DNA of 64,000 bases from Liquidambar formosana. Taxonomy: Eukaryota > Streptophyta > Magnoliopsida > Saxifragales > Altingiaceae. The position numbers and the translations under genes are program-made. How positions within the stretch are numbered: the first letter of the stretch is position 1; each line of letters begins with the position of its first letter. This document shows, in pieces, positions 3,578 to 34,021 of the stretch. The stretch lies in the NCBI GenBank assembly GCA_039720395.1, contig CM077833.1:16863133-16927132 (forward strand). The letters are read 5' to 3'. The notes under the pieces are model-generated. The model did no database searches and was not told where the DNA came from. It saw nothing but the letters and a program-made list of their open reading frames with translations.

Positions 3578-3624
3578 AACTCTCGAGAGTTTGAAACTCT
3601 CGAGAGTTGAAACTCTTGAGAGTT
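3578..3624. repeat. three consecutive AACTCTCGAGAGTT palindromes
   Basis: The 14 bp perfect palindrome AACTCTCGAGAGTT occurs at 3578-3591 and 3595-3608, and a one-base variant (AACTCTTGAGAGTT) at 3611-3624, with start spacings of 17 and 16 bp. A weaker half (TGAGAGTTA) follows. No gene adjoins it. It may be a slippage product of a hairpin-forming word. Confidence 0.7.
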
Positions 3625-4195
3625 ACAATCTGAGAGTTAGAATTTTGGTTGTTCAGTTTACAAAAGGATTTTCCAAAGGAATTTATGTTTTTTTTTCTTT
3701 AAAAAAAAAAAGAAAAAAAAAACCTTTAAAAAAATAAATAAATAAAATCCGAAAAGTTATAGTCGTGAAGCAATATGATCTAAAGTTAATTTAAATTTGC
3801 CGAAGAAGAAGAAATTAGGTATTAAAAAAAATAAAATCTGAGTTTAAAATCAAAAATCGTGACATAATTTTATAAACACACACACACACACATATAAATC
3901 TAAATTCATGATTGAGTTCAAGTTGAGAGTGTAAGCCAAGATTTAAGTTTAACCCATTGATGTATATTATTTTCTCATGGCATTCCTACTTTGGGTGGCT
4001 TACTACCATTGTTGGAGCAAGTCTACTCGCAATTCCGATTCATTTGAACAAGCATTCCTACCCATTCCATTTAGTAGGGTAGCAATAGATCTTGTCAATT
4101 AACTCAATCTAGCAGAGCACCAATCAACACCAGTATACCTCCATGTATATATTTACATATATTGTATTGGTTTAATTGTTCTACCATGGTTATTG

Positions 4196-4260
4196 GATCG
4201 AGGCAGGACAAGAGAATATCATTTTTTTTTTTTTTGATCGGTAAAAGGATCAAGGCAAAA
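4196..4260 (-). mobile_element. possible short LINE tail
   Basis: A T-run followed by GATCGGTAAAA lies between two imperfect direct repeats (GGATCGAGGCAGGACAAGAG and GGATCAAGGCAAAATAAGAA). This matches the pattern of a severely 5'-truncated LINE on the minus strand. The mismatches suggest an old event. Confidence 0.3.
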
Positions 4261-15970: not shown

Positions 15971-16019
15971 CTTCTTCCTTCTTTTTTTTTTTCACTCAGT
16001 TAAAAACTTACACACCCAC
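15971..16019 (-). mobile_element. SINE, 3' piece (split by the retrotransposon)
   Basis: On the minus strand this is the tail of the SINE whose head lies at 34022-34111. It includes an A-rich 3' end (T/C-rich on the plus strand at 15971-15992). The SINE's own target duplication ACCCCACCATAGAAC is at 15956-15970 here and at 34112-34126 on the far side. CCCAC at 16015-16019 is the retrotransposon's target site. Confidence 0.65.
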
Positions 16020-16549
16020 TGTAAGCGCCGCGGGCTAGTGCGGCCCTTTAGGACGTATAATGCTATTGCGAAGCACTAGCGTATCAGGAGTCGCCACCCA
16101 AGTCAGCCTTGGGAACTAATCATACCATTCTGGGTAATTCAATCTCAAATTCAACGAATTCGAACCAGAGATCCAGAGTTCGGAGCTAAGGTACACTGTT
16201 GGGAAGGTGTTAAGCACCCGACAATGCCCGATAAAAAAATCGGCCTCCGTAAACGATTGTTGGCTATATTTAATCCAGAAAATTTAGTTGAATTTCATCC
16301 ATAAGCACACAATATATGAAATGTCATGCTAATCATATGAAAAATGATGCGAGTAAAGTGAGAAAGAGGCTATAATACATAGCAAAACAGGATATACAGA
16401 AAATTAGATATACAGGTTACCATTTGATGAAATAATATATACAAGTTAACATTTAATGAACTAGCCAAAACCAGAGTAAATCATCAGAAATATTTAATAT
16501 TAAAAAGAGACATGATAATAACTGAAGTTAATGAAAGAGTGGTGACAGG

Positions 16550-16651
16550 TGCGTACGCAATATGGGATAATGAGTACGCATGGTGCGTACGCAACAATAA
16601 CTAATGCGCACGCACATAAGTGCGTACGCAACATACCATAATGCGTACGCA
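16550..16651. promoter_or_regulatory. decamer cluster, 3 pairs (left LTR)
   Basis: Core GCGTACGC or one-base variants start at 16551, 16572, 16585, 16606, 16622 and 16643. Within each pair the starts are exactly 21 bp apart. Gaps between pairs are 13 and 16 bp. The same array recurs in the right LTR at 32877, 32898, 32911, 32932, 32948 and 32969. The function is not known. Confidence 0.85.
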
Positions 16652-17473
16652 TGAGTGCACTGTGTTCTTTCCTCTACCCTGGGCACGGGCTGAAAGTATC
16701 CACGTCAATTTTCATTTTGTCAGAGACCAACTTCTTTCTAGCTTATCTCAATCATTTCTTAACCATATTCAATGATTCAAAACCTAGATTACAGTTCCCA
16801 TAGTATACTACCAGCATGCATAACTTATTTACACAGATATTTACAGAATCATGGTCATATTTGAGTTCAAAGTCTGGGATTTCCATCCCGGCGACTATCC
16901 GGTCCGTACAAAGTAACAAAATAATTAGTGATACCTATCTACTGGGTATATAATAGCTAATCCTCAATGTATTCTCTAGTGTTAAAAGCAAGAATAATAG
17001 ACATTAGAATGAGAATAACTTACCCTCAGGTTTGAGTACCTCCGATATCGATGCAACAATTCCCACCTTATCGCCTTAGATTGCAGCTGTACATTCCTTT
17101 GGTTTCCTTATGGTTTTCTAGTGTTTGGGTGTCTGTTTGATGGATGATTTCATTTCTTTTTCTCCCTAAGTTTCTGACTGGTTTTTTCTCATTGATTTCT
17201 CAATCTTTCAATGTTATTCACTCGGATGATTTTTCTCCACCTTTTTTCTCTATTCAGCAGAGTCTTTATTTATAGACTGCGGTAAGTCGGTTTTCCTCAC
17301 TAAAAACCAAAAGCATACCTGTGCGACCCAGGAAATCAGCAACCGGCTGGTTCCCTTGTTTTGTTCCCCATACATTTCAAATTCAAGCGGCCCCAGAAAC
17401 TTTTTCCCTCTACCCCATGCCGATCAGTCTTGGGTGAAAACATTGGTGCTGGAATAAGGGGAAGTGACATTTG

Positions 17474-17525
17474 TGCGTACGCATATGCTGATGTTGCGTA
17501 CGCATACATAGTATATGCGTACGTA
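17474..17525. promoter_or_regulatory. decamer cluster, 3 sites (left LTR)
   Basis: Sites start at 17475, 17496 and 17517, spaced 21 and 21 bp. The right LTR has four sites here (33800, 33821, 33834, 33855; spacing 21, 13, 21). The left copy therefore looks like a deletion of one 13 bp step between neighbouring decamers. Confidence 0.85.
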
Positions 17526-17678
17526 AGAGGTAATCACACAGGCTTTCAAGCTGCAATCTAAGCGTTTCGTTAAGAATTGCTTTGTCAATTTCTCGGGACA
17601 CACAATAAACCTCATCATCGGGATTCCAACTCGGGTGATCTCACATCTGATTGGGCGGTACAAAATGGGGTGTCTACA

Positions 17679-17692
17679 GTTGCCCCTCTTTC
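17679..17692 (-). promoter_or_regulatory. polypurine tract
   Basis: Immediately inside the 3' LTR the minus strand reads GAAAGAGGGGCAAC, a purine-rich run where plus-strand DNA synthesis would be primed. Its position agrees with the PBS at the other end. Confidence 0.75.
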
Positions 17693-17960
17693 GATTATAC
17701 TCGCTCGTGAGTAATATCGGAAGACTTCATAGACCCGTCCATTTTTACCGACTGACCAAATCGAAATCAAAGTATAAGCAATGCAATGGGTCGAGTCAGG
17801 AATCACCCAACTACCTACGTACCCTGTGGAAGGGATCAGACCCGCCGTAGTGCGTGTAAACAAAATAAAAGCTCACCTGGGCAGTGATGTGGGGTATAAG
17901 TGTACGAGTTAACGAGAATAGCCATCTCGGGCTTATTAGAAATTGTCCTTGACGAAGGGC

Positions 17961-18210
17961 AATAAGGCGTTATCGAACCCTATAGCGAGGGTTGACCTCA
18001 ACAGAGGCCCACGTAAGTGATATCGGTCCTTATAGAAAGGGCTGACCTCAACAGAGGCCCGAGTCAATGGTATCGGACCCTACGAATAGGGTTGACCTCA
18101 ACGGAGGCCCGAGTCAATGGTATCGGACCCTACGAATAGGGTTGACCTCAACGGAGGCCCAAATCGGGTGATGTCGGACCCTACAAATAGGGTTGACCTC
18201 AACGGAGGCC
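17961..18210 (+). repeat. five tandem 50 bp repeats
   Basis: Units start at 17961, 18011, 18061, 18111 and 18161 and a decayed continuation follows to about 18300. Each unit carries a hairpin word (CCCTACGAATAGGG in the best copies) and the near-palindrome GTTGACCTCAAC, which contains a W-box core TTGACC. The array lies about 500 bp upstream of the antisense PMD gene and just inside the 3' LTR. A promoter role is a guess; tandem arrays at this position are common in Tat elements. Confidence 0.9.
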
Positions 18211-18371
18211 TAAGTCGAGTAATTTTGAAGAACAGTCGTGATTTTCGGACCTTAACGAAGGTCGGGTATTTAAATTTGGACCCTTAGAAAGGTCTGGTAT
18301 CAAGTCGAGACTTAACTACAAATTATGTGTCAATATTGCCGCTGGTTTGTAGTCAAGCAAAATCATTCAAA

Positions 18372-18436
18372 TGCGTACGCACAAGCCATCATTGCGTGCG
18401 CGTTCTACGTGCGCAAGGACCCTTCATGCGTACGCA
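18372..18436. promoter_or_regulatory. decamer cluster upstream of the PMD gene
   Basis: Sites start at 18373 and 18394 (21 bp apart) and at 18407 and 18428 (21 bp apart); the pairs are 34 bp apart. Two are exact GCGTACGC and two are variants (GCGTGCGC, ACGTGCGC). They lie 280-340 bp before the PMD start codon. Confidence 0.8.
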
Positions 18437-18712
18437 ACAGTGTTTTAATTCTTCATACAATAACCGGGACGGCGTCGTTTTCTTCACCATCATCTTTCAA
18501 GCTTACAACCCTTCGTCTCCGGCGAAGGTTTTCCATATTACCCAAACCTCTCACAGTCTTTCTGTCTCTCCCTAACGTCTTTGCATTCAAATCCCTTCCC
18601 CCTCCTCAGATTCTCCACTTTTCCATTTCCCTTCTCCTCTACCCAAACTCCCTCCTCATCTACGTTCCCCGTAACTTCATTGCCAACATACCCGAAGCTC
18701 CCATCGACAGAA

Positions 18713-21459
18713 ATGGCGCCCAAACGAGTCCGTGGAGATGACGATGGCTTCGTCATCAACAGGTGGGACCCCCAGCTTCCTCCGAACGCAATACCGGAGA
18801 TTCTGCACCGGCCTACGGAGCACCGTTCCCAGATTGCGCGCCAACAGAGGGTATGTTATACAAGATTTGATTTTTCCTTTTAAAGCTTTGATTTTTATTA
18901 ATGCATGCCAAAGATTCAAAATTTAAATAATTTGTGATGCCTAATAAACCTAAAAAACATTGTGAACTCTGAAAATAACGATGGGGAAGAGATGGGAATG
19001 GCGGGACAATGTAAAAGCTGTGTGAGAACAGATCCTGGGTTTAACGCCTGCGTACGCAATATCATCTGTTGCGTACGCAAAATAATACTCAAGTTCTCAC
19101 AGCAAATCTTGAAAACAACACCTATATGGCCTATGACCTAAGACATAACCTTGACTGACGACACTTCGGGGAAAAGAAAGGGTGGCACCCTATTCAACGG
19201 AAAGATGGTTCTCACGATGCGTACGCATTTACAGTGGATGCGTACGTATCGTGTGTGCAGAATTCCGAAGTCCAGGCCTTTGAGACTCGAGCTCGAGGGG
19301 GACCCATGCCAATACTAACATTGCGTACAGAACTTTACGGGGTATGTACGTAAGATCACGAAACCTTGGGGACAGGACCTAAGGCTTTGATCAGTAGGCT
19401 TAATGATGACGCGTTGGAGGATGGGGCAATGGGTTCCAGTGCTCAATAATTATCAGTTATACTATGCGTACGCCCCTGTTGGTAATGCGTACGCAAATCT
19501 CTGTTGCGTACGCACTTTTGGTTTTTGCGTATGCAACAGTGTAATGCAATTCTATTTTACAAAACTGTTCAATGTACATACCTTTTTTTATACTTACCTG
19601 ACTTTAAATCTTTGCAGATTCCGAAGAAGAAGTATGGACGCGGTAGCATGGATAGCCTGACTAGCTGGTGGGGTCGGCTTACCGAGGAGACCCGGCAGCT
19701 GGTCATAGACGCGGGCTTCAGGAAGCTCGCCACTGACACCATCACGCGCCGTCCTGGCCCTACCCTTGTGCTTGCCTTGGCCGAGAGGTGGTGGGACACC
19801 ACCCACACCTTCCATATAGCTGGACGGGAGTACACCATGACCCCGTATGATTTTTACCGCCTGACTGGGCTGAGGATGAGGGGACGGCGGTTTACTTTTG
19901 AGCTGACGGAGGCCGATCGCAAGGCCTTGACCTTGCGCTTGTTGGGAGTTCCTTGCCCATCTGCTACGCTGAAGTACCCAGCCCTGCTTGCTGCGTACTC
20001 TCAGAGAGGTCAGGATACTGTGGAGGATCGCACGCAGATGGCGCGAGCATTCATTCTATACCTCCTTGGCGCCTTTCTGGTCGCCAATTCCGCACAGACA
20101 GTGGAGCCTGGATGGCTACTGGCTTTGGATGATTTGACTGCTGCGAGAGAGTACGGCTGGGGAAGTGCGGTGCTATCTCATCTGTACGCCACTATGGATT
20201 CCCTGAGTCGGCTAGTGTCCGATCCTACCGGGTGTTGGCGCTTGTGGGGGGTAAGATGCTTCCTTTCCCTTTTTTTTTTTTTTTTTTTTTCTTTTCTGTA
20301 CTTTTCTTTTTTATTTTTTACTGTAAATGGTAACATCTGAACTGTACAGTTGTGGGCTCGCGAGTATCTCACCCTGGAGCCTCTGATGGATGGTGACGAG
20401 GCTTCACACATCGTGGTCAGAGAGTTTTTGGACAGATTAGATAGGGTAAGTGCCTTCCTTTCCTCTCTTTCCCCCTCTTTTCTTCTTCTTTTTTTTTTTT
20501 TTTTTTTTTTTTTTTCAAACTGTACTAACTTCCTCTTCTTTTTTTTTTTTTGCAGGTGAATGCCCGACCATGGGTGGGTGCTCCAGAGCTGGGTCCTCAG
20601 GACTGGGAGGAGGATGCACGGGAGATGTCTGAGATCTCCTGTCTGCTGTCCTATCCCAGGGCACGCGCCTTCTATTTTGCTGAGAGGGTGGTGCCTCAGC
20701 TCACCATAGACCCGGAGTTGCGCCAGAGGGTTCCTTATGATCCGCCTTCCTTTTCCCTGATCCCCTATTCGATGAGTTCAGCGGATGTAGAGGAGTGGCG
20801 AGAGGGTATCCACTATCTTTCCAGACTACTAGGACCCTCGGAGAGCTACTCCACTTTCGCCCGCGAGCGGCTCATGCCCCGCCTCGTCGGACACCAGGTA
20901 TTCTGATTATTTCTGTGTTTCCTTTACCTGTTTTTGATTTTTGATGCTCACTTTATCTTCATGCTCACTTTATCTTCTCCTTTTCTGTCAGGTTCCTTTT
21001 GCTGGCGCGCCTGGAGAGGGATTTCCACCTGTATTCCCTTCCTGGTCTGTTCCACTCTTCCGTCGCAACGGCCGGGTTCGCGATGTGCGTATCCAGCGGG
21101 ATATGACGGCTTATCCCTGTCCTATTCCTCCTGGTACACGCCAGGTATGTTTTCTCTATTTCTGCAAAAATATGGTTATCATGTAATGTATGCATGTCCT
21201 AATTGTTTTTCCCATTTTTCCCTGTTAGCTTACGCTCCCCGAGACTGAGTTCGTCTATCAGATGATAGGCGGACTCAAGCAGCTATGCATTGATCAGTCA
21301 CAGACTATCCTGGAGCTGCGGGGAGGCGCGGGACGAGGTGGTGGTGGTGATTCAGACAGTGATGATGATGACGATGATGGGGACGGTGATGAGGAGAGCG
21401 TGATGCAGCCCCCTCGTGGTCGCGGTGGTGCCAGTTCATCCGGTGCTCAGAGGCGATAG
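18713..21459 (+). CDS. antisense six-exon plant mobile domain (PMD) gene of the retrotransposon
   Basis: Exons 18713-18850, 19618-20250, 20350-20445, 20556-20897, 20992-21144 and 21229-21459 join into 530 residues with GT-AG introns, every one in phase 0. The start MAPKRVRGDDDG has a basic patch. The body (about residues 60-310) has the layout of the PMD family (PF10536, MAIN/MAIL relatives): WWDTTHTFHI, MTPYDFYRLTGLRM, the LLGVPCP region, RAFILYLLGAFLV, WGSAVLSHLYATMD and LWAREYLTLEP. The C-terminus is an acidic run (DSDSDDDDDD) plus a Gly/Arg tail. Host MAIN and MAIL1 act in gene expression and TE silencing; the TE copy's role is unknown. It opposes gag-pol, so its introns are not removed from the genomic RNA and survive retrotransposition. 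Codon use is GC-rich, unlike the DUF7745 gene beside it. No break is seen. Confidence 0.85.
19049..19535. promoter_or_regulatory. decamer pairs in intron 1 of the PMD gene
   Basis: Pairs start at 19050/19071, 19219/19240, 19323/19344, 19466/19487 and 19506/19527, each exactly 21 bp apart. Six of the ten are exact GCGTACGC; the rest are one- to few-base variants. All lie in the 767 bp first intron (18851-19617) and none in the exons. Confidence 0.85.
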
Positions 21460-21741
21460 ATTTCTTTCTTTGTTCACTTACCCTCTTTTTTCTCAGAACA
21501 GTTTCTGTATTGGTTTTTTGGGATGTGTATTTAAACATTTCTGCCACAACCTTTATTTCAGTTTTTTTTTTTTTTTAATTTTCATTAGCAATTGCATGTT
21601 TATATGAAAATATGCGTGAATCCCCATAAATCACTGATATTTCATTGAAAACCATCCACCACGACTTGGTCGAATCAAACAATCACTATCTTTCGGACTC
21701 GGTATCTGTCGTGAAAATCCGTTGGCAGAAATCCACACAAA

Positions 21742-21840
21742 GATGTATGCAAAACAACCTGATGCCTATGCATGTTGCGTACGCATAATGACAGTGTGCG
21801 TACGCATGATGCGTACGCAATACACAATCTAGCGTACGCA
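21742..21840. promoter_or_regulatory. decamer cluster upstream of the DUF7745 gene
   Basis: Exact sites start at 21777, 21798, 21811 and 21832 (spacing 21, 13, 21). A decayed pair (ATGTATGC at 21743, GCCTATGC at 21764) sits 34 bp before them with the same 21 bp spacing. The cluster is 155-250 bp before the start codon of the DUF7745 gene, in the 534 bp between the two antisense genes. Confidence 0.85.
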
Positions 21841-21993
21841 AGGTACTACTCCATGGGACCCACACAGCTGCATGAATATCCTTTTCTTTTCATTCCACCG
21901 CCTTCTTTCAAAAGTCCTCGGTAACGACAAACCATTCTGAATGTCTTAAATCATTTTCTTTATTCCACCGCCTGTCTTCAGAATTTCTTGATA

Positions 21994-23365
21994 ATGGCAA
22001 TTCTTTCTGATTGGATTAAATCTTTTAATCGTCAGTTTCGCGAGGAGCTGAATACACAATTCCACTTAGCTTCTTTACTTGATTACTCCAAAGTGCGGAT
22101 CGATCAGAACTTTCTTCAATTTGCTGCGGGATTTTGGGATCCTTCCCGTCATGTGTTTCGCTTCAACAATTCAGAGATGTGTCCTACCATGGAGGAGTTT
22201 GGAGCTATTCTCGGGCGTTCCGATTTTACTCATGTCCTGCTACCCTCAATTGCCCAAGCTAAAGCTGAGGATTTAGTTCCCATATTTGGTATCTCCTTTA
22301 GAGTTGCTCGTGACTTGTTCTCAGATTCCCGAATAAACTTGCAGTCCTTGATTTCATATTTCCGTCAACTTCCTACTGCGAGCACAGAAAACCAACCTCA
22401 ATACCAATTGAATGCCGCTTGCTTTTGTATCTTGGCAAAGTACTTATTCATGGATGATTCTGATTCTGTTGACGCAACTCTGCTGCTAGTTCTTCCAGTC
22501 TTAAAGGTCCAAAATCCTTGCATGATGATTTTAGCTGGTACTCTCAATGCTTTGAGCAAATTCGTGAGAGGTGAGGTTTCCTTCATAGGCGGTAGTCCCC
22601 TTTTGCTGCAGGTGAGTTTACTGCCTCCTTCCCTTTTTTTTTTAGTTGTGCTGCTGCTTTGTTGCGTACGCATTGAAATATGTAGCGGACGCAACTTGCG
22701 TACGCATCAATTTACATTGCGTACGTTATATGTTGCGTACGCAATTGTATATGGTGCGTGCGCATATTTGCGTACGCATCCTGTAATAATGCGTACGTAT
22801 GAATGTTTTGTCCTTTCTCCAGATTTGGCTTTTCGAGCGTCTTCAACTTGTGTCAGAACCTCAGTCGAGTCCTTGGACATATCAGCCGCAATTGTATCGC
22901 CGTAGGCCTTTGATCAAACCTTTTCCTGACATGGATAATCTTCAAGCGATAGTTTCGAACCTTTCTTGCCATAACGTCCGGTGGTTCTGCCCCTGGTGGA
23001 GAATATCTGACATGACTTCAAGTTTAATCCTTTCTCACGGCGTAATGTTGGTTGGTTTGAAAGAAATATCCTACTGCCCGGTGTCCCGTATTCAGCGTCA
23101 ATTTGGAGAATCCCAGAGAGCTCTGAATAAAGACCATATGGGATACGTCTGTCCTCTTGTGGGTCGCATTATTGAGCGCATCCGGGAGTCATGGCCCCAA
23201 AGAGCCCGGACATATTCTATTACCGCTCCAAAATTAATCAGCCCTTCAGCGTCTTACTATGCTTGGCTCGCTTCTGATATTGAGGAATCCAAAAAAGCAA
23301 ATGACCAGCACAAACGGAAGATCATTGGGCAAAGTAGTTGTGATCGAAAAAAGACGAGGAAATGA
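21994..23365 (+). CDS. antisense DUF7745-type gene of the retrotransposon
   Basis: Exons 21994-22611 and 22823-23365 join in phase 0 to 386 residues. The start is the ATG at 21994 (MAILSDWIKSFNRQF). The sequence resembles the PMD-related DUF7745 proteins of plant TEs: WDPSRHVFRF, MCPTMEEFGAILGR, the ILAKYLFMDD region, a join reading FIGGSPLLLQ-IWLFERL across the splice site, and WFCPWW with a later CPLVGRIIERI. The C-terminus is lysine-rich (KANDQHKRKIIG, then KKTRK), perhaps a nuclear signal. The intron 22612-22822 carries eight decamers. The gene converges on gag-pol; the stop codons are 167 bp apart, so the two 3' ends probably overlap. Function unknown; the family call is from memory of the motif pattern. 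Confidence 0.8.
22663..22799. promoter_or_regulatory. decamer cluster in the DUF7745 intron
   Basis: Eight sites start at 22664/22685, 22698/22719, 22735/22756 and 22770/22791. All four pairs are spaced 21 bp and the gaps between pairs are 13, 16 and 14 bp. Four are exact and four are variants (GCGGACGC, GCGTACGT twice, GCGTGCGC). They fill most of the 211 bp intron. Confidence 0.85.
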
Positions 23366-23532
23366 TTTGCTAATTCGAAATAAACCTTGTCAATCGTATT
23401 GTATTTCATGTCTTTTCCCCTTTTTTAGTACAAGCAATCAACAAGATGTAACAGTTACTTAAATAAACAAAACTATCTTAATTAAATTTTGCACTGATTC
23501 CAACCCATTGTTTACACAAAATTGAGTCCATT

Positions 23533-26500: not shown

Positions 26501-29500
26501 ACTGCCTGTATGAAACCCACTTTTAATAGCTTGGACACTTCTTCTTTCACCTTGATTTGCCATTCAGGTTGCATTCTTCTTAGACGTTGCTTTACTGGTC
26601 TAAACCCTTCTTTGATGTCAATGCGATGTTGCACAATCTCGGGATCTATACCAGGCATATCTTCATAGGACCATGCAAATACATCTTGGAATTCCTCCAA
26701 TAAGGTGCTGAAATCAGATTGCTCTTGTACAGACAGAGTGGACCCAATTTGTATTTCCTTAGGATTTTCATTAGTGCCTAAGTTAATCATGATGGTTTCA
26801 TTCTTTACAGGTTCGAGATTTCTCTCGTGTTCATCATTAATCGCTTTGTTTAAGTCAGGGTCTTTAGACATTTGTACAATATATTCGTCAAGGGACATAT
26901 CGAAGTAAGCAAAATCAGAGCTCATTTCATTAGTAAAAGGAGTGATTACATCAAGGGTTTTCTTAACGGCCTCTTTACCAAGCATAGCCTGAGCACCACT
27001 TTCAATAGTCTCTGCTCCCTTCTCCCAGCTCCAAGTACTAGTTCCCCCATTAGCATCCTTAATCAATTTTGACAAGTCCCCCGCAACTGCCTCTTCAGTC
27101 AAGGCAAGTATGTACATGTCACGATCAGATAGTAGCAAGTTCCATGCTCCCTGTTCCAGATTGTCGGCCCAGTCCACTTCCAGTATTTCTATCTTGGTTG
27201 GTTCCTTCAAAACAAGCTCCATTCTCAGCTCTTCTGTGAAGAATACTTCCAGTCCAGGTAACCTCTTCCCGCTCCTTTTATCTATCCAGGGTTCAGGGAA
27301 ACCACAATAGGGAAAGTTTTCTCTTTCTTTGACAAAATTCCCATTGAGCGTGTTCTTATTCTGTGGGAACCCTTCTTTTCCCTCATAACCTAGCCCTTTG
27401 CGGTTCTTTTGTGCTCGGAAATCTGGGAATTCGGTGATTCCTTGGCTATTTCTCCCCATGCCCATGCCTGGCATATATCCCATCTTCTTCATGATGTGTG
27501 CCACCATGTGGCTTACTCCTTCTGCAAAGTCTGGGCAAACTTTTTCCTTATCTGTATCCTTCCTTTCCAGCACTTGTACCAGCTCAAATCCTCTCCATCC
27601 CAGGTTTTCTTCTCCTTCTTTGATTCCCAGAACCTGACCAGTTATCTCCCCATCTCCATGAATTACTAGAACACCTCCTTCCCATGGTAATTTGATTTTC
27701 TGATGTACTGTGGATGGAACAGCTTCTAATGGATGGAGCCAAGTTCTCCCCAGAAGTAGATTATAATTTGCTGGTATATCCATTACACAAAATTCGACTG
27801 TTGACTCAGTAGGTCCCACCTTGCAATTGGTTGTAAATGTTCCAAGCACACTTCTTGAGCTATTATCATAGCCTCTTACCGTCATAGCAGATGGTGCGAG
27901 TTCTTCCTTGCAAATTCCCAGTCTGGTGGCTGTGCGCAAAGGACACACATTTAGTGCTGACCCATTGTCTATCAGAACTACTGGGATTCTCAAATCCTTA
28001 CATTCCACGGTAACGTACAAAGGCTTTGCATGCTCTGTACCTTCAGTTGGGAGATCTTCTTTCGAGAAGGTTAACACAGCCCTGCTGGTAGACCCAACTC
28101 CCATGATTGACAGTACCTGTTGTGGTGTTGTTTCTACAGATACCTCATGCCTTGCTAGTGCATCCAAGAGCGTTTGTCTGTGGTTTTTGGAGGCTACTAA
28201 TAAACCCCATAGGCTGATGTTTGCTTGTGTTCTTTTTAGTTGCTTTAAGACCCTGTCTTCCTCTTCTTCCTTCCCCACATCTGCAATTTTCTGTCTCAGT
28301 TCTTCTATATCAACTTCTTGATTTGCCTCTCTTCCTGGGTGGTCACCCTCCAAAAAGGGTGGTTTAAAATGTCTCCCTGTGCGTGTGAGATGCATAGTAT
28401 CCTCACCTTCAATCCCTTCTCTGATTTCTTCCCAAAACTTTGTTCCCCGTGTCTCCTCTTCTTCATCACTGTCATCCCATGGTACACATACGGCTATTAG
28501 TGCTGATGGGTCCCAATTCTTGCTTCCTTCTTCGATCACGTTGGCATATGGTGGTGGTGCATTCTTATGATTGGGTATGGGGTTTTGATGTACATTGGGC
28601 TTTTTCTCTGGCCCAGGAGGTGGTAGCTTTCCTGAATCTATCATATCCTGGATTTCATGCCTCAAGCGGGTGCAATTATCGATCTTGTGCCCAATTCGTT
28701 GATGGAATTCACAAAATTCATTCTGCCTCCAATTGGACGGGATGGGACTCGGGAGTGCTCTTGGTTCCAATGCTTGTAAGTACCCCCGTTTTGACAGGTT
28801 AGCAAAAGCTTTAGACAAAGGAACACCCAGATCATGGAATACTCTCGGCTTCTTCTCAGTTGGCTGAATGGTACTGACTGCTGCTTGTGTAGCCCCACCG
28901 GCTCTAACTCCACTATTTGGAACATTGCTGCTGGCTCCAAATACTCTTTTGGGCTTGCCTTCTATCTGTCCCTTATGGATTGCATCTTCTATTCTTGTCC
29001 CACACTGATACAATTGTTGAAAGTCCATAACAGATGAGGTCAACATTTTATCGAAGTAAACGGATGTTAGATTTTTCAGCACCATATTGACCTGGTCTAT
29101 CTCAGCTGGCCTGTTGGTCAATTTTACCGCTTTTGCCCTCCATCTGCCGATAAACTCAGAAAAGGGTTCATCAGGCCTCTGCCTTGTCATCTCCAAATCT
29201 CGCAGTGTTACATCCAGCATAGTATTGTAGTTGTACTTATTTGTGAATTCTTGGGCTAAAGCTTCCCAAGATCCAATCATCTTCTCTTCCAACCCATAAT
29301 ACCATTTTGATGCATCCCCTGACAACGACAAAGGGAAAGCATGCAAGATCTGTTCTGAATTCAGTCCCCTCATTCGTGTAATGCTCATGTACTGACGGAG
29401 GTGCTGCTTTGGATCGCCAGTCCCATCAAATTTCTCATAATCTGCCATTTTGAATTTAGAGGGAAGTTGGGCTTTAGCTATGGACTCGGCGTTGGGCATG

Positions 29501-29940
29501 GAGAACATATAGTCATCCATTCCTTGGGATTTGCGCCATGCAGCCTTCATTTGGCCCATTTGCTCTCTCATTTCTTGATTCTCAGCCTCTAGTTTGTCCA
29601 CCCGAGGGTCTTCTATTTTGCTCTTTCCTTTGGCGTTTTTCTTGAGTGTGTAGTCAGCATAGTCTTCATCATCCCAGGCATTCTCATTTTCTTCCTCCCC
29701 TTCAGAATACTTTTGCTCTTTTTCTTCTTTGGGCTTCCTTTCTCCTGTCTCTAGGTTATCCATCCTTTGTACCAATGCAGCGACCATTTTTTTCGTCTCA
29801 GCTTTTTCTTGTTGCATCAGAGCCATAAGATCAGCTAGGGTTGGTTCTGCCATCTGTTCTATTCTTCTCAATCGATTGGATGTAGGTGAACGAGTCCAAA
29901 CACGACTTGAATGCTCAATTTTTACTGAAATTTTGGCCAA
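23533..29940 (-). CDS. gag-pol polyprotein, Tat-lineage Ty3/gypsy
   Basis: A single open frame of 2135 residues. In order: an N-terminal charged region with coiled-coil potential, gag (KWYYGLEEKMIGSWEALAQ near 213), a CX2HX4HX4C knuckle-like motif (CEFHQRIGHKIDNC near 410), aspartic protease (LIDNGSALNV near 655), a G-patch-like segment (MGYMPGMGMG near 813, then GLGYEG), reverse transcriptase (YVDDMIVKS near 1268), RNase H (YLSVFEEALGSMLAQ near 1417), and a second RNase H-like domain (YFDGASNQYGDGIGVIL near 1560) typical of Tat elements. Integrase follows with an HHCC zinc finger near 1785 (…CHQC), catalytic Asp in GIDIMG near 1855, Asp in ISDNG near 1915 and Glu in GAVEAANK near 1950. No frameshift separates gag and pol. 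A second possible start (MAEPTLADLM) is residue 30. All catalytic signatures I can check are present. Confidence 0.95.
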   Translation of the reverse strand: MAKISVKIEHSSRVWTRSPTSNRLRRIEQMAEPTLADLMALMQQEKAETKKMVAALVQRMDNLETGERKPKEEKEQKYSEGEEENENAWDDEDYADYTLKKNAKGKSKIEDPRVDKLEAENQEMREQMGQMKAAWRKSQGMDDYMFSMPNAESIAKAQLPSKFKMADYEKFDGTGDPKQHLRQYMSITRMRGLNSEQILHAFPLSLSGDASKWYYGLEEKMIGSWEALAQEFTNKYNYNTMLDVTLRDLEMTRQRPDEPFSEFIGRWRAKAVKLTNRPAEIDQVNMVLKNLTSVYFDKMLTSSVMDFQQLYQCGTRIEDAIHKGQIEGKPKRVFGASSNVPNSGVRAGGATQAAVSTIQPTEKKPRVFHDLGVPLSKAFANLSKRGYLQALEPRALPSPIPSNWRQNEFCEFHQRIGHKIDNCTRLRHEIQDMIDSGKLPPPGPEKKPNVHQNPIPNHKNAPPPYANVIEEGSKNWDPSALIAVCVPWDDSDEEEETRGTKFWEEIREGIEGEDTMHLTRTGRHFKPPFLEGDHPGREANQEVDIEELRQKIADVGKEEEEDRVLKQLKRTQANISLWGLLVASKNHRQTLLDALARHEVSVETTPQQVLSIMGVGSTSRAVLTFSKEDLPTEGTEHAKPLYVTVECKDLRIPVVLIDNGSALNVCPLRTATRLGICKEELAPSAMTVRGYDNSSRSVLGTFTTNCKVGPTESTVEFCVMDIPANYNLLLGRTWLHPLEAVPSTVHQKIKLPWEGGVLVIHGDGEITGQVLGIKEGEENLGWRGFELVQVLERKDTDKEKVCPDFAEGVSHMVAHIMKKMGYMPGMGMGRNSQGITEFPDFRAQKNRKGLGYEGKEGFPQNKNTLNGNFVKERENFPYCGFPEPWIDKRSGKRLPGLEVFFTEELRMELVLKEPTKIEILEVDWADNLEQGAWNLLLSDRDMYILALTEEAVAGDLSKLIKDANGGTSTWSWEKGAETIESGAQAMLGKEAVKKTLDVITPFTNEMSSDFAYFDMSLDEYIVQMSKDPDLNKAINDEHERNLEPVKNETIMINLGTNENPKEIQIGSTLSVQEQSDFSTLLEEFQDVFAWSYEDMPGIDPEIVQHRIDIKEGFRPVKQRLRRMQPEWQIKVKEEVSKLLKVGFIQAVSQADWIANIVPVPKKDGRVRVCVDYRDLNKACPKDDFPLPHIDVLVDNTASSALMSFMDGFSGYNQIWMAPEDMTKTTFTTEWGTYCYTVMPFGLKNAGATYQRMATTLLHDMMHREVEVYVDDMIVKSETREDHLQNLRKFFKRIRKYKLRLNPQKCTFGVTSGKLLGFLVTNRGIEVDSTKVKAILEMPPPKTEKEIRGFLGRLQYISRFIAKLTSTCEPIFKLLRKGEPKEWNDQCQQAFEAIKEYLLNPPILVPPRPGKPLMLYLSVFEEALGSMLAQRDDQGCEHAIYYLSKKLHDYEIRYTVVEKSCFALVWAVQKLRHILMNYEVQVICRMDPFKYLFEKQTLNGRLSRWLFLLAGFELVYVTQKAIKGGAVSDYCGKHPVLGEALNDDFPDENLLNVDCLKIWKMYFDGASNQYGDGIGVILITPEGSHIPLSIKLNFQNSNNTAEYEACIAGLEALLTLQAEEVEVFGDSALVIAQVQNIWKTREEHLKPYQNHLERLAHKFRKITFTPLPRSQNQFADALATLASLIHIPEGARLQPLTIQQKSQPAHETTIMVTEGEIDDGEPWYFDILNFLEHGKYPEGANKKDRRALRLLAMQYILCGGSLFKRSPNGIHLLCINEKAAKVLISEVHEGECGPHMNGRMLAKKIIRLGYYWTTMEADCGNYVRKCHQCQVYSNMQYTPPVELHQLTSPWPFSAWGIDIMGKITPKATGGYEYILVAIDYFTKWVEAEAYMVLKAKHVAKFIETHIICRYGVPYEVISDNGLHFQGEVQDVFEKYNIKHHKSSPYRPQTNGAVEAANKNIKHILEKSVETYKDWAEKLPSALWGYRTSIRTSTGATPYSLVYGMEAVLPVELEIQSVRVMVEGKIPEAEWKRSRYEQLALLDETRLKALYHVQGYQRRVARAFNKRVKPRNLKEGDLVLKEMLTRVSDPRGKFRPNWVGPYIIKTILPGGAAKLMDEEGNEFTQPTNLDRLRKYYI

Positions 29941-30712
29941 AGCAAATGTTTAAGTTCACATCCTTTTACCAAGTGAGAAACTCATTCTAGTATGACTTTA
30001 CCCAATTCCTTTTTATCATACTTTGGGCCTCATCATGTTTACTAAATCTTTTGAATGCTCCAAAGTTTGATAAATGTACCAAATTGGTCATTTTAAGCAT
30101 AAGCCCATTTACAATTCTCTCACCTCATCAGCATCTTTTGGGCCTAAGTCCAAATTTCTTTTCTTTTTTTTTTTTTTTTTCAAGCTTAGACCCAATTTAC
30201 AAAGCTGCTCATCATCTCTCACATACTGGGCTTTAGGCTTAAAGAATAATCAATTTGGCCTTTAATTTGTTTGGATTTGTTTGTTCTTTGGATCTGATTT
30301 AGTCCTAACATTTACTAGGCCCACATAATTTGTTATCTGTTTCAAGTTAAGTCCAATGGTGTTAAGGTGACCAAACTTCCAGGCCCGGACCTCACGGATT
30401 GCTATTTTACCCAGCTATTCAAAAGCTCTTGGCCTCTGGCCGACGCTAACGCTATGATTGACAGCCTAAGCGTCGATTTGTCAAAAAAAACGGCAACGGC
30501 ATGCTGATAACCCAAGGCTCGAGGGATTAATTAATCCCCTACCTTCACTAGCGTATGGTAGCGTGTCGGCCCTCCTGACAATGCATTAACTCTCATATCC
30601 TCTCACTCTTGAGCTTCTTCATAAACGGAGATTAAGCATTAGCAATCTCACAATTATTTGAAAACTCAAACCCCCATCTCCCTCATTTTTCTTAATTTTC
30701 ATCCTAGACTCA
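29941..30712. other. retrotransposon leader between gag and the antisense coiled-coil gene
   Basis: About 770 bp of non-coding DNA separate the two divergent starts (gag leftward at 29940, coiled-coil rightward at 30713). It has a T-run at 30165-30180 and several words around TAGCGT near 30450-30560 (ACGCTAACGCTATG, CTAGCGTATGGTAGCGTG). No GCGTACGC decamer was seen here. It could serve as a bidirectional regulatory region. Confidence 0.5.
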
Positions 30713-31270
30713 ATGGCTTCTTCTTCTTCCTCTCACAGCCGTCCTGACTTAAATGCTGCACCAGATATGCAGCCAGACACTTGGCACCCAATGTTCATAA
30801 CTTATGACCAGCCCATCACAGTTAATGATACTGTGATACACAACCATACAAATGCTGTAGCGGTAGCCGCAGGGCTCCTTACTCCTCGCGACGAAAGGAT
30901 ACTAAATGCAAGGTCCGACATGGACCTAATGAGGGATGCCATGGCCCTAAGTGTTCGGGCCACTACAGTCACTTCCAGCATGGCCCGGCGCCTGCATACT
31001 AGGAGTGGGGAAGTCCAAAGGCTTAACAATCAAACTCTCAATCTTCAACGAAAGATTCAGCGGTCCAGTCGGACAATAAGGACCCTGAAAGAGGAGAACA
31101 GGACTCTGAAGGAGATGGTGGATGCTTATGCCAGGGGAGTTACACCTAGAGTTGTAGCTCTAGAAGGGCTCGAGGATCAAGTTCGGGAGCAACTGGGAAA
31201 GCTCCAAAACGAAGTTCAAATTCACTCTTCTGGTCCTTCCAGCCCTCCTCAGGATGTTGCTATGGAGTAG
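30713..31270 (+). CDS. antisense coiled-coil protein gene in the retrotransposon leader
   Basis: An intronless frame of 185 residues starting MASSSSSHSRPDLNAAPD in a good plant start context (TCAATGGCT). Residues about 95-165 have heptad-like spacing (RRLHTRSGEVQRLNNQTLN, then RTIRTLKEENRTLKEMVDAY, then EGLEDQVREQLGKLQ) and should form a coiled coil. There is no transmembrane or catalytic signature. It lies opposite to gag-pol, between the PBS and gag, where Ogre elements have a sense ORF1. I do not recognise a named family. Reading-frame integrity and clean start context support a real gene, but no homology is visible to me. Confidence 0.65.
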   Translation: MASSSSSHSRPDLNAAPDMQPDTWHPMFITYDQPITVNDTVIHNHTNAVAVAAGLLTPRDERILNARSDMDLMRDAMALSVRATTVTSSMARRLHTRSGEVQRLNNQTLNLQRKIQRSSRTIRTLKEENRTLKEMVDAYARGVTPRVVALEGLEDQVREQLGKLQNEVQIHSSGPSSPPQDVAME

Positions 31271-32326
31271 TACCTTTTCTCTCTTTTTTTTTTTTCTTTT
31301 TCTTTATGTTTCTCTCTTCTCTCTTTTCTTTCTTTTTGAATCTAATGAACACTCCCCTCTTTTTTTTTTTCTCTCAGAGTATAGAAGAAGAGTAAACAAA
31401 TATAAAAGGATATTATATTTCACAAGCTAAAACCAGATTACATATTCTGCACTACTGGCTACCATAAGCCAAAATACAAAATACATTTTTAACTCTCAAA
31501 ATGATACATAAAAACGAGCAGGAGCGCGATGAGTGCCAGAAATGGAATAATCCTTCGGAATGGAATCTTTACACATGCGCAATAGAAGGCCATCTGGAGT
31601 GAGAGTATGGTGAACAGAATAGTGAAGATGAAGAAATCCCAAGAAAACATGGTGAGGGAGGAGGCTCTGATAGGGGAACAATGATGAGTGTTTATAAGAA
31701 GAAATCTCAGGGGCTAAAAATGGCAAACCCCCCTTATCGATTTGCAGGTAGTGGCCACTTATAGAAGGGACATCAGCTTTCCAGTGGTCACGTGGAGGGG
31801 ACCCCTTATGACTACAAGCATTGAACCTTTGAGGAATAATGATTCCTCCTTTAAATAGCAAAATCCCACTTCCTCTCCCATATTGGGCACAACTTGAAAT
31901 AGTAAATAATTAATGTGGACCACGCCCCGCACCCGTGATAAACATCTAATCATGGATGCAATTATGACACACAAAATGACATGCATTTATGCAGGGTTAT
32001 GCAAAAGTAGGAATTTTCCATGTGTGGCTGGTCAGCAGGGTACTTCTCCTTCAAGGGTTACCCAGGCTAGGATGCTCAATGAGCAATCCGTTAACGTACT
32101 CACAAGCTTATTACAGGCTAGTGGCACAGACCGTGGGTTGATGATGCTAACTCCCAGTAACCATAGGCGCGAATGGGGCCCGGTACTTTTCGTCAGACTG
32201 TCATCGAGGGTATAAGGGTAATTGTGCCCGTGTGTGCAATTATTTAGTTCTACTCAATTAAATATTCCGGTTTAATTAAAGCCAACAATCATTTACATGG
32301 AGTCTAGCTCTTTAGCAAAGTTCAGC
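31271..32326. other. retrotransposon 5' leader
   Basis: About 1.05 kb between the coiled-coil gene and the PBS. T-rich tracts at 31285-31370 follow the coiled-coil stop and may hold its 3' UTR. Minus-strand frames of 121 and 75 codons (31496-31986) lack any recognisable motif and overlap in different frames, so I do not call them genes. No decamers seen. Confidence 0.5.
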
Positions 32327-32344
32327 TCCCCAGTGGAGTCGCCA
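32327..32344 (-). promoter_or_regulatory. primer binding site, tRNA-Arg type
   Basis: On the minus strand, one base after the 5' LTR, the sequence is TGGCGACTCCACTGGGGA. This complements the 3' end (…GTGGAGTCG plus CCA) that I recall for plant tRNA-Arg(ACG). A tRNA-Arg primer is described for Ogre-type elements. It fixes the orientation of the element. Confidence 0.85.
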
Positions 32345-32345
32345 C

Positions 32346-34016
32346 TGTAAGCGCCGCGGGCTAGTGCGGCCCTTTAGGACGTATAATGCTATTGCGAAGC
32401 ACTAGCGTATCAGGAGTCGCCACCCAAGTCAGCCTTGGGAACTAATCATACCATTCTGGGTAATTCAATCTCAAATTCAACGAATTCGAACTAGAGATCC
32501 AGAGTTCGGAGCTAAGGTACACTGTTGGGAAGGTGTTAAGCACCCAACAATGCCCGATAAAAAAATCGGCCTCCGTAAACGATTGTTGGCTATATTTAAT
32601 CCAGAAAATTTAGTTGAATTTCATCCATAAGCACACAATATATGAAATGTCATGCTAATCATATGAAAAATGATGTGAGTAAAGTGAGAAAGAGGCTATA
32701 ATACATAGCAAAACAGGATATACAGAAAATTAGATATACAGGTTACCATTTGATGAAATAATATATACAAGTTAACATTTAATGAACTAGCCAAAACCAG
32801 AGTAAATCATCAGAAATATTTAATATTAAAAAGAGACATGATAATAACTGAAGTTAATGAAAGAGTGGTGACAGGTGCGTACGCAATATGGGATAATGAG
32901 TACGCATGGTGCGTACGCAACAATAACTAATGCGCACGCACATAAGTGCGTACGCAACATACCATAATGCGTACGCATGAGTGCACTGTGTTCTTTCCTC
33001 TACCCTGGGCACGGGCTGAAAGTATCCACGTCAATTTTCATTTTGTCAGAGACCAACTTCTTTCTAGCTTATCTCAATCATTTCTTAACCATATTCAATG
33101 ATTCAAAACCTAGATTACAGTTCCCATAGTATACTACCAGCATGCATAACTTATTTACACAGATATTTACAGAATCATGGTCATATTTGAGTTCAAAGTC
33201 TGGGATTTCCATCCCGGCGACTATCCGGTCCGTACAAAGTAACAAAATAATTAGTGATACCTATCTACTGGGTATATAATAGCTAATCCTCAATGTATTC
33301 TCTAGTATTAAAAGCAAGAATAATAGACATTAGAATGAGAATAACTTACCCTCAGGTTTGAGTACCTCCGATATCGATGCAACAATTCCCACCTTATCGC
33401 CTTAGATTGCAGCTGTACATTCCTTGGTTTCCTTATGGTTTTCTAGTGTTTGGGTGTCTGTTTGATGGATGATTTCATTTCTTTTTCTCCCTAAGTTTCT
33501 GACTGGTTTTTTCTCATTGATTTCTCAATCTTTCAATGTTATTCACTCGGATGATTTTTCTCCACCTTTTTTCTCTATTCAGCAGAGTCTTTATTTATAG
33601 ACTGCGGTAAGTCGGTTTTCCTCACTAAAAACCAAAAGCATACCTGTGCGACCCAGGAAATCAGCAACCGGCTGGTTCCCTTGTTTTGTTCCCCATACAT
33701 TTCAAATTCAAGCGGCCCCCGAAACTTTTTCCCTCTACCCCATGCCGATCAGTCTTGGGTGAAAACATTGGTGCTGGAATAAGGGGAAGTGACATTTGTG
33801 CGTACGCATATGCTGATGTTGCGTACGCATGGTGCGTACGCATACATAGTATATGCGTACGTAAGAGGTAATCACACAGGCTTTCAAGCTGCAATCTAAG
33901 CGTTTCGTTAAGAATTGCTTTGTCAATTTCTCGGGACACACAATAAACCTCATCATCGGGATTCCAACTCGGGTGATCTCACATCTGATTGGGCGGTACA
34001 AAATGGGGTGTCTACA
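32346..34016 (-). repeat. 5' LTR (right copy, 1671 bp)
   Basis: This LTR adjoins the primer binding site and so would drive the genomic transcript leftward. It carries the complete four-decamer cluster 33799-33863 upstream of the TATA box and a six-decamer cluster at 32876-32977 downstream of it, in R/U5. Ends are TGTA/TACA and the flanking target duplication is CCCAC. Confidence 0.95.
33592..33599 (-). promoter_or_regulatory. TATA box of the 5' LTR
   Basis: The minus strand reads CTATAAATAAAG here, a good plant TATA box about 420 bp into the LTR. Transcription would start some 30 bp further, near 33560, giving a U3 of about 450 bp. The matching site in the other LTR is at 17267-17274. The decamer cluster at 33799-33863 lies about 200-270 bp upstream, in an enhancer position. 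Confidence 0.6.
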
Positions 34017-34021
34017 CCCAC

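Follow-up and report, generated by a model that had tools for sequence, protein, structure and literature searches.

A two-turn lattice of palindromic decamers in the non-coding DNA of a PMD-bearing Ogre-type retrotransposon

A palindromic decamer, TGCGTACGCA, recurs as a lattice through a retrotransposon in the 64,000-nucleotide stretch of DNA analyzed here (the window). This lattice is non-random, non-coding and spaced at two helical turns. It is conserved in relatives with diverged flanks, and a sister family and a distant family each have another word in the equivalent positions. On the sequence comparisons below, we lean towards reading the lattice as a binding-site array and family address, for which the likeliest reader would be the element's own PMD or DUF7745 protein, acting in the manner of VANC.

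The element and its genes

The element and its features were located in the window as follows.

16020-34016: retrotransposon carrying the lattice, pol on the minus strand
16015-16019 and 34017-34021: target-site copies CCCAC flanking LTR1 and LTR2
16020-17678, minus strand: LTR1 (3' LTR in pol sense), from alignment to LTR2
32346-34016, minus strand: LTR2 (5' LTR in pol sense), from alignment to LTR1
18713-21459, plus strand: PMD gene, antisense to pol, 530-aa open frame; 6 exons (18713-18850, 19618-20250, 20350-20445, 20556-20897, 20992-21144, 21229-21459)
21994-23365, plus strand: DUF7745 gene, antisense to pol, 386-aa open frame; exons 21994-22611 and 22823-23365
23533-29940, minus strand: gag-pol open frame, 2135 aa

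The LTRs with their target-site duplication, the domain order and the reverse-strand PMD extra gene place the element among Ty3/gypsy Tat (Ogre-type) retrotransposons. Its gag-pol frame encodes gag, a protease-like domain, a G-patch, RT, RNase H, a second RNase H-like domain and integrase. The order of RT (RVT_1, residues 1159-1317), RNase H (RT_RNaseH, 1408-1511), additional RNase H (RVT_3, 1563-1680) and integrase (rve, 1850-1946) corresponds to the Ogre/Retand aRH position, a rule taken from the available part of PMC6317226. Alignment of the LTRs revealed 5 substitutions, one 1-bp gap and one 13-bp array unit present in only one of them; arrays therefore gain or lose whole units.

The PMD and DUF7745 gene models were built from splice signals, without transcript. 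The PMD gene product matched Pfam PMD (E 1.1e-21), and the DUF7745 gene product matched Pfam DUF7745 (E 7.2e-12) and, under the Pfam PMD cut-off, PMD (E 7.9e-8); these are two PMD-clan proteins encoded by the element. Remote matches to DUF1985 (E 6e-4 and 3e-4) reached 20-23 bits, below the Pfam cut-off of 35.1, and no Pfam match to DUF287 was detected in the element-encoded proteins. Predicted structures of the PMD and DUF7745 exons (pLDDT 42-46) were too poor for use.

The decamer lattice in the window

All exact copies of TGCGTACGCA (27) and GCGTACGC (29) in the window lie within the element; the positions given by the first-pass annotation were GCGTACGC starts, one base downstream of the decamer start. 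The element contains 39 matches to TGCGTACGCA at up to one mismatch and 48 at up to two, compared with means of 0.13 and 3.4 in 30 first-order Markov sequences. Elsewhere in the window there were 6 matches at up to two mismatches, and no palindromic decamer with a partner at 21 bp. Gaps below 120 bp between neighbouring decamers measured exactly 21 bp (22 times), 13 bp (7 times), 16 bp (3 times) and 14, 19 and 83 bp (once each), bearing out the original claim of a palindromic lattice paired at 21 bp. The compartments claimed for it, namely both LTRs and the leaders and introns of the PMD gene (intron 1) and the DUF7745 gene, were likewise upheld.

16550-16651: LTR1 cluster A, 6 decamers, steps 21, 13, 21, 16, 21
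17474-17525: LTR1 cluster B, 3 decamers, steps 21, 21
18372-18436: PMD leader cluster, 4 decamers at steps 21, 13, 21, of which two are exact and two have 2 mismatches
19049-19535: PMD intron 1 array, pairs 19049/19070, 19218/19239, 19322/19343 (decayed), 19465/19486 and 19505/19526
21763-21840: DUF7745 leader cluster, decamers at 21763 (2 mismatches), 21776, 21797, 21810 and 21831
22663-22799: DUF7745 intron cluster, 8 decamers, steps 21, 13, 21, 16, 21, 14, 21
32876-32977: LTR2 cluster A, copy of LTR1 cluster A
33799-33863: LTR2 cluster B, 4 decamers, steps 21, 13, 21, one 13-bp unit more than LTR1

The first-pass annotation had omitted the arrays at 17474-17525 and 32876-32977, and of its decayed pair 21743/21764 only 21763 came within 3 mismatches. 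The pol, PMD, DUF7745 and ORF185 exons contained no decamer at up to one mismatch; three unpaired decamers with 2 mismatches lay within exons (18781, 19992 and 21086), roughly the number expected by chance. Across 18 window pairs the motif positions were informative and the spacer and flanks carried little information, with a spacer identity of 0.30 compared with 0.28 for shuffled sequence (P = 0.051).

A neutral minisatellite, driven by slippage, unequal exchange and LTR copying, would explain the spacing as the relic of a 21-bp repeat unit. The 13-bp unit that differs between LTR1 and LTR2 is consistent with this origin, as is the richness of the lineage in tandem repeats reported in the accessible text of PMC11963269. 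Against it, the window decamers are alike and their spacers are not significantly so, and exons are free of decamers at up to one mismatch.

The pairs could also act as RNA, each forming a hairpin (stem 10 bp, loop 11 nt) that serves as a splicing, packaging or export signal. Two copies of one palindrome are always mutually complementary, and transcription of leaders, introns and LTRs is possible. However, of 16 altered 21-bp pairs in the element none showed compensatory changes, and of 100 altered 20/21-bp pairs in related loci (L009-L036) 5 did. Nor does a hairpin require palindromic arms, or sites in series of 3-6 at 20/21-bp steps; we give this explanation hardly any credence.

Words in related elements

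Genome-wide, the exact 21-bp TGCGTACGCA pair was found at 4376 places, compared with 0 for a backward control, and four random 10-kb stretches held 1 unpaired decamer in 40 kb. Decamer arrays with 20/21-bp steps were present in 8 of 8 loci chosen solely by their PMD gene (67-83% PMD identity). Together these loci contained 101 decamers at up to one mismatch (expected, 0.2), with neighbour steps of 20 bp (29 times), 21 bp (21 times), 38-41 bp (12 times) and others (11). The outcomes that the first-pass annotation had set against itself, namely equal frequency of the decamers elsewhere, absence of a 21-bp peak and family members lacking the spacing, were not observed in the controlled genome count, the eight PMD-chosen loci and the four random stretches. 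Its general rule of 21 plus 13 bp did not hold: beyond the window the 13-bp step occurred twice, both times in L009 (LTR 91% alike), and other families use 20/21 bp. The general rule is two helical turns, and 13 bp is specific to the window family.

The eight loci could be aligned with the window just around exon 1 and the start of exon 2, plus 54 bp at a decamer pair in two of them. The window's PMD intron 1, DUF7745 leader and DUF7745 intron, masked for decamers, had no match at E 0.01 in 20 fetched stretches. Decamers thus remain at homologous places where flanks no longer align, which argues against a minisatellite, and they are worn in copies with stop codons, which does so too: exact decamers made up 4 of 12 and 0 of 9 in the two copies with stops in the PMD exon, compared with 10 of 11 to 11 of 20 in the six copies without. 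Spacers at step 21 in L012-type families are partly alike (identity 0.57 compared with 0.33 shuffled), as a minisatellite would have it, and because they are more alike than shuffled spacers, unit duplication contributed in these families. For the lattice as a whole we regard the minisatellite as improbable; a different word at all homologous places of a sister family, described below, is unexpected under it. CpG transitions accounted for 49 of 126 decamer mismatches, so the arrays are not necessarily methylation-free.

Families with one common word shared just 40-51% identity in PMD exon 2 and little alignable flank. The word was not predicted by overall PMD distance, because PMD exon 2 of the window was 48.5% identical to that of L010, which bears a different word, and 46.3% identical to that of L012, which bears the same word.

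Element Y (L010/L038) has the word CACGTACGTG, not TGCGTACGCA, with 4 copies in each LTR, 1 in the PMD leader, 8 in intron 1, 3 in the DUF7745 leader and 1 in the DUF7745 intron, plus one there at 2 mismatches. Its own TGCGTACGCA content is one unpaired copy; the TGCGTACGCA LTR within L010 was inserted separately and has the target repeat CACGT. L024, the sister of element Y (identity 54.7% in the PMD exon, 62.7% in DUF7745 and 82.0% in pol), carries TGCGTACGCA at the corresponding places. Exact CACGTACGTG pairs numbered 1025 genome-wide (control, 0). A distant relative (L026/L037, PMD identity 29.1%) lacked TGCGTACGCA; its presumed LTR and both of its leaders carried GACGGYNNRCCGTC with a 22-bp step. 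PMD-bearing elements showed three words (TGCGTACGCA, CACGTACGTG and GACGGYNNRCCGTC), and in each one compared a single word recurred through the LTRs and through both accessory genes' leaders and introns.

Like the partly alike L012-type spacers, the CpG transitions and the failure of PMD distance to predict the word, two further observations count against a binding array. The two leader modules of L026 were 75% alike over 79 bp, and lattices are not confined to PMD elements, because a GGATCGATCC lattice (21, 48, 21, 49, 21) occupies both ends of an element that yielded no PMD, DUF7745 or pol relatives and a CAGACGTCTG lattice (20, 22, 21, 47, 21) lies within an insertion of unassigned kind. 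In favour of such an array, non-decamer palindromes in 279,304 bp, a non-random sample, had 20 partners at a lag of 20-22 bp, compared with 1-7 in eleven other 3-bp lag bins.

Strict pyrimidine/purine alternation in TGCGTACGCA and CACGTACGTG, and one solo LTR inserted inside a CACGTACGTG site, would suit a signal based on DNA shape, such as Z-DNA, or one for recombination, such as a preferred integration site. We consider this very improbable: CAGACGTCTG, GGATCGATCC and GACGGYNNRCCGTC lack the alternation and still occur at 20-22-bp steps, and just one insertion into a site was seen. An array of host transcription-factor sites, hijacked as LTR enhancers by elements drifting between factors and involving no element protein, is also unlikely. 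It accommodates the lattice in an element without a detectable PMD gene, the CG in all words found and the cores GTAC, ACGT and GACGTC in some words, which we take to be plant factor sites. Less easily accommodated are the use of one and the same word for the LTRs and for the leaders and introns of the two accessory genes in each compared PMD-bearing element, and a word common to families at 40-51% PMD exon 2 identity, a long retention for opportunistic host sites.

A candidate family address and known systems

The reader of the lattice is probably a factor that co-diverges with the element, with the element's own PMD-type protein as candidate. The 10-bp two-fold symmetric sites, which recur two helical turns (20-22 bp) apart across the LTRs and both antisense genes' leaders and introns, would lie on one DNA face, where a factor recognizing the family word may bind cooperatively. 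Once bound, it could sustain the activity of the LTR promoter and of the accessory genes, most probably by counteracting silencing, like VANC on VANDAL. The likeliest reader would be the element's PMD or DUF7745 protein, so that a change of word would go with a change of reader. A family address that related elements keep, or replace by another at the same places, looks like a self-recognition code. In a more tentative version, which we think possible but doubtful, each Ogre-type family would have one two-turn palindromic word in its LTRs and accessory-gene leaders and introns, read exclusively by its own PMD-A and/or DUF7745 protein, so that the family escapes silencing and promotes its own transcription; word and reader would switch as a pair, isolating new families from old ones and from non-autonomous parasites.

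If the address reading holds, LTR retrotransposons too have evolved a sequence-specific form of anti-silencing whose words change fast, and words would sort families, parasites and possible readers in large plant genomes. PMD genes in plant Gypsy elements have been known for years without an assigned function. In the sections available, PMC6317226 leaves open whether PMD extra genes function at all, and PMC5418596 describes PMD domain function as undetermined and speculates on anti-silencing for MULE-captured copies. With the lattice come defined cis targets, specificity controls in the form of sister-family words, and a spacing rule, so PMD/DUF7745 function becomes directly testable by binding assays.

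Among known systems, Retand TRP28 elements have antisense genes between pol and the 3' LTR, repeats there and a proposed DNA-binding role, as described in part of PMC11963269; they differ in carrying TRP28 in place of PMD/DUF7745 and in their family-specific repeats, and that part mentions no palindromic word shared across families or sited in LTRs. Tat/Ogre elements with PMD genes share the second RNase H between RNase H and integrase and the reverse-strand PMD extra gene (PMC6317226). PMD is carried by 57% of Ogre elements according to the same partial text, and PMD-A clades are encoded only by Gypsy elements according to that of PMC5418596; the portions of both papers describe no cis target word. 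The host PMD proteins MAIN/MAIL1 and the 'DOWN' promoter motif (PMC7156037, PMC9899485, in part) likewise tie a PMD-domain protein to a short motif in regulatory DNA, CATGCAGTTT at MORC1 (PMC9899485). Unlike the present case, these excerpts concern host genes and another word, outside an element's own introns or LTRs, and describe no palindromic lattice. By eye, CATGCAGTTT was not matched by TGCGTACGCA, CACGTACGTG or GACGGYNNRCCGTC.

The VANC/VANDAL anti-silencing system of Arabidopsis was reportedly described by Fu in 2013, work cited in PMC13317346. The first-pass proposal of a VANC-type target array is supported in so far as word and places are kept past flank alignability and a sister family has the whole set exchanged for another; its 21 plus 13 bp rule is not supported. 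Differences are that VANDAL is a Mutator-like DNA transposon, whereas the lattice belongs to a Ty3/gypsy LTR retrotransposon and extends into its LTRs; that the candidate readers here are PMD/DUF7745 proteins, with no DUF287 match and DUF1985 below the cut-off; and that a palindrome on a two-turn lattice replaces YAGTATTAY, described in the available excerpts as single-orientation arrays. In the portions available of Hosaka 2017 (PMC5735166), which gives DUF1985 as a domain of VANC, and of PMC10398659, VANDAL resembles the present element in its dense short-word arrays in transposon non-coding DNA, among them arrays within the introns of its own genes and upstream of those genes, in related families with different words, in array units gained and lost, and in words rare elsewhere. 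The present element, too, encodes a candidate reader, with a remote, below-cut-off DUF1985 match.

Palindromic decamers in the window element

The palindromic decamer TGCGTACGCA occurred 27 times exactly in the window and its core GCGTACGC 29 times, every copy lying within a single Ty3/gypsy Tat (Ogre-type) LTR retrotransposon with the following features:

16020-17678 and 32346-34016: LTRs, with CCCAC on the outer flanks
23533-29940, minus strand: gag-pol frame with RT, RNase H, a second RNase H-like domain and integrase
30713-31270, plus strand: antisense ORF of 185 aa between the 5' LTR and pol, coiled-coil-like by eye

Between the LTRs there were 5 substitutions, one gap of 1 bp and one array unit of 13 bp, and the insertion is therefore young. 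Between pol and the 3' LTR were two antisense genes, a PMD gene (six exons, 530 aa) and a DUF7745 gene (two exons, 386 aa), both open in the gene model; AlphaFold models of their proteins were poor. The 185-aa ORF was kept at 51-52% identity in three further elements (L013, L019 and L021), had no credible Pfam match and contained no decamers. Residues 814-853 of the gag-pol frame, which follow the protease-like region and precede RT, matched a G-patch domain (E 2.9e-9). Tandem repeats of about 50 bp lay between the LTR and the PMD leader (17971-18216), with 52-bp repeats at the corresponding place of the fetched stretch L010 (2305-3517), both without the lattice word.

At up to 2 mismatches the element contained 48 decamers compared with 3.4 expected, and the gaps between neighbours were 21 bp (22 times), 13 bp (7 times) or 16 bp (3 times). 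The lattice described in the first-pass annotation is thus real. When 18 non-duplicate pairs were aligned, with LTR1 cluster B and LTR2 cluster A excluded as LTR duplicates, both decamers proved highly informative and the 11-bp spacer and flanks carried little information. At up to 1 mismatch, each LTR contained two clusters of decamers, and others lay in the leader and intron 1 of the PMD gene and in the leader and intron of the DUF7745 gene; none was detected in the exons, so the claimed restriction to LTRs, leaders and introns holds at this threshold. Three unpaired 2-mismatch matches in PMD exons were about the number that shuffles yield for the whole element.

Two readings of the decamers themselves were examined and dropped. 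RNA hairpins as the main explanation would call for compensatory changes, which were found in 0 of 16 altered 21-bp pairs of the window element and 5 of 100 altered 20/21-bp pairs in the fetched stretches L009-L036. The idea that decamer CpG sites escape mutation was abandoned because CpG transitions made up 49 of 126 mismatches over 298 decamers. In the window pairs (16550-33863), the first decamer was exact in 15 of 18 and the second in 6 of 18 (Fisher P = 0.006; a post hoc comparison in the window family alone), a direction not required of paired palindromes.

Word and spacing across the genome

A search of the 718-Mb genome identified exact TGCGTACGCA pairs at 21 bp in 4376 places; the backward-read control gave 0. 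We then compared 20 fetched stretches (L009-L028), of which 16 were selected for containing an exact pair and the other 4 came from fixed positions. The steps at up to 1 mismatch were 21 (81), 20 (35), 38 (4), 31 (3), 13 (2), 19 (2) and 16, 34, 42 and 44 bp (1 each). The four fixed-position stretches held 1 decamer, unpaired, in 40 kb, which gives no sign that the decamers are equally frequent outside the family. Outside this genome, the pair pattern had 0 matches in viral contigs and 4 in prokaryotes in the genome-contig collection (L001-L004), which were taken as chance; no relatives were detected in either collection.

To avoid motif-based choice, PMD exon identity (83 to 67%) served as the sole criterion for selecting eight loci (L029-L036), and about 1.85 kb upstream of each was read. 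Arrays were present in 8/8, with 101 decamers at up to 1 mismatch compared with 0.2 expected; together with the excess in the window element (48 versus 3.4), this ruled out chance as the source of the lattice. The steps were 20 (29), 21 (21), 19 (2), 22 (1), 38-41 (12), 46 (1), 49 (5) and 57 bp (2). The 13-bp step, absent here and seen only twice in L009-L028, had been proposed alongside 21 bp; a 21 plus 13 pattern was rejected as a generic rule.

The DNA around the arrays was far less alike. Alignment of the PMD-chosen loci to the window was limited to the surroundings of exon 1 and the beginning of exon 2, joined in two of them by a decamer pair spanning 54 bp. After masking of the decamers, the window's PMD intron 1 and its DUF7745 leader and intron had no match in the 20 fetched stretches, the PMD leader matched in two of the 20, and the LTR matched mostly in short blocks, the exception being L009 (91% over its length). 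Word and spacing outlast the surrounding DNA. In two of the eight PMD-chosen loci the PMD exon was interrupted by stops and the arrays were worn (4/12 and 0/9 decamers exact); in the six without stops, exact decamers ranged from 10/11 to 11/20.

In relatives, tblastn matches and inspection by eye defined the compartment limits. In the arrays of L012 and L018, the 11-bp spacers were often dyad-symmetric themselves (for example TGGTCTCACCA), as if bases adjoining the decamer also matter. On contig C99 of the genome (G000), PMD exons of the 73% family recurred on one strand at regular 8.45-kb intervals (1042, 9496, 17946 and 26402), which suggests a tandem array of an element unit. A first look at the genome gave 3707 candidate PMD and DUF7745 loci.

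Database proteins also carried the pattern. P0005, a DUF7745 relative (63% identity over 54% of the query), is translated beyond exon 1 into the intron and ends with VRTH and, seven codons on, MRTH, which is how two TGCGTACGCA-compatible words at a 21-bp step would be translated (codons read by hand). The PMD relative P0001, also read by hand, gave steps of 22, 20 and 20, matching locus L031. Both would constitute an independent trace of the lattice. The predicted Fagus sylvatica (database name) protein P0002 was PMD-like in its N-terminal half and DUF7745-like in its C-terminal half by eye, as if annotation had merged two adjacent element genes.

Different words in related elements

Other words at like spacing were found in related elements. 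L010 and its continuation L038 form an element with PMD, DUF7745 and pol in which CACGTACGTG stood at steps of 21: 4 matches at up to 1 mismatch in each of two LTR copies, 1 in the PMD leader, 8 in PMD intron 1, 3 in the DUF7745 leader and 1 in the DUF7745 intron (plus 1 at 2 mismatches). Pairs of CACGTACGTG at 21 bp occurred at 1025 places genome-wide (control 0). Outside an inserted LTR, TGCGTACGCA was represented in L010/L038 by only one unpaired near-match in intron 1. That LTR (L010 3526-5101) is a 1576-bp solo LTR of a TGCGTACGCA family with target repeat CACGT, located exactly in a CACGTACGTG site; it is a separate insertion from another family.

The closest L010 relative among those compared, L024, carried TGCGTACGCA in the matching compartments, with identities of 54.7% (PMD exon 2), 62.7% (DUF7745) and 82.0% (pol end). 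The two were grouped in the DUF7745 (support 0.998) and pol (0.997) trees; the PMD tree placed L010 with the long-branched L026, beside L024, with weak support (0.678). L012-type elements and the window element, more distant from L024, likewise had TGCGTACGCA. The simplest history would be a switch of the whole site set in the L010 line. That the word simply tracks overall PMD distance was dropped, as PMD exon 2 was 48.5% identical between the window and L010 (different words) and 46.3% between the window and L012 (same word).

The third element with a PMD gene was L026/L037, whose PMD exon contained stops and was 29.1% identical. Its word was GACGGYNNRCCGTC, at steps of 22 bp, in the presumed LTR (one LTR fetched) and in the leaders of both DUF7745 and PMD, with 1-2 mismatches in the PMD leader. 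No TGCGTACGCA was found in it, and its two leader modules were 75% alike over 79 bp.

Lattices beyond PMD elements and the candidate reader

When the window and the fetched stretches (279,304 bp in all) were searched for palindromic decamers of any sequence that had a similar copy close by, a peak at 21 bp emerged even without TGCGTACGCA, and two further words were found. One, CAGACGTCTG, lay within an insertion; an insertion in pol of L021 (about 2668-5165) carried the 16-bp palindrome TTTCAGACGTCTGAAA at steps of 20, 22, 21, 47 and 21. The other, GGATCGATCC, formed a lattice (steps 21, 48, 21, 49, 21) at each end (L037 3832-4001 and L039 3508-3677) of a small element; by eye this element has a gag-like ORF, and no relatives of PMD, DUF7745 or pol were detected within it. 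Lattices therefore occur beyond PMD elements as well, and the element-encoded reader accordingly stays a candidate. Gag-only elements with TGCGTACGCA (L011 and L015/L016) fit non-autonomous users of a trans factor.

Replacement of the whole set of words argues that something in trans reads the sites. The two-fold symmetric word suggests that the reader may be a dimer, and steps of 20-22 bp would place its sites on one helix face. The array is very probably read by some DNA-binding protein. With more modest confidence, we favour an element-encoded PMD-type reader that would keep the LTR and accessory genes active, because of the likeness to VANC, a remote DUF1985 match (below cut-off) in the PMD proteins here, the PMD genes of Ogre and PMD-A elements, and the host PMD motif link. 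PMD genes are reported in 57% of Ogre elements, where their function is given as not known (PMC6317226), PMD-A clades are described as encoded by Gypsy elements only (PMC5418596), and Pelissier 2025 connects DNA motif modules with host PMD proteins.

The open literature searched (subscription papers and preprints lay outside this scope) yielded no earlier description of this lattice, and nothing on PMD/DUF1985 with a palindrome or on an LTR with a 21-bp palindromic motif. Among the papers listed as containing TGCGTACGCA as text, none was on transposons by title and abstract start.

The observation in the first-pass annotation thus stood and reached further than claimed, and its interpretation, which likened the lattice to VANDAL, was supported in part. 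VANC proteins, which carry DUF1985, are described as binding short words arrayed in VANDAL introns and upstream DNA, with other words in related families (PMC5735166). The lattice system is no member of the VANC family, yet by analogy it would work alike.
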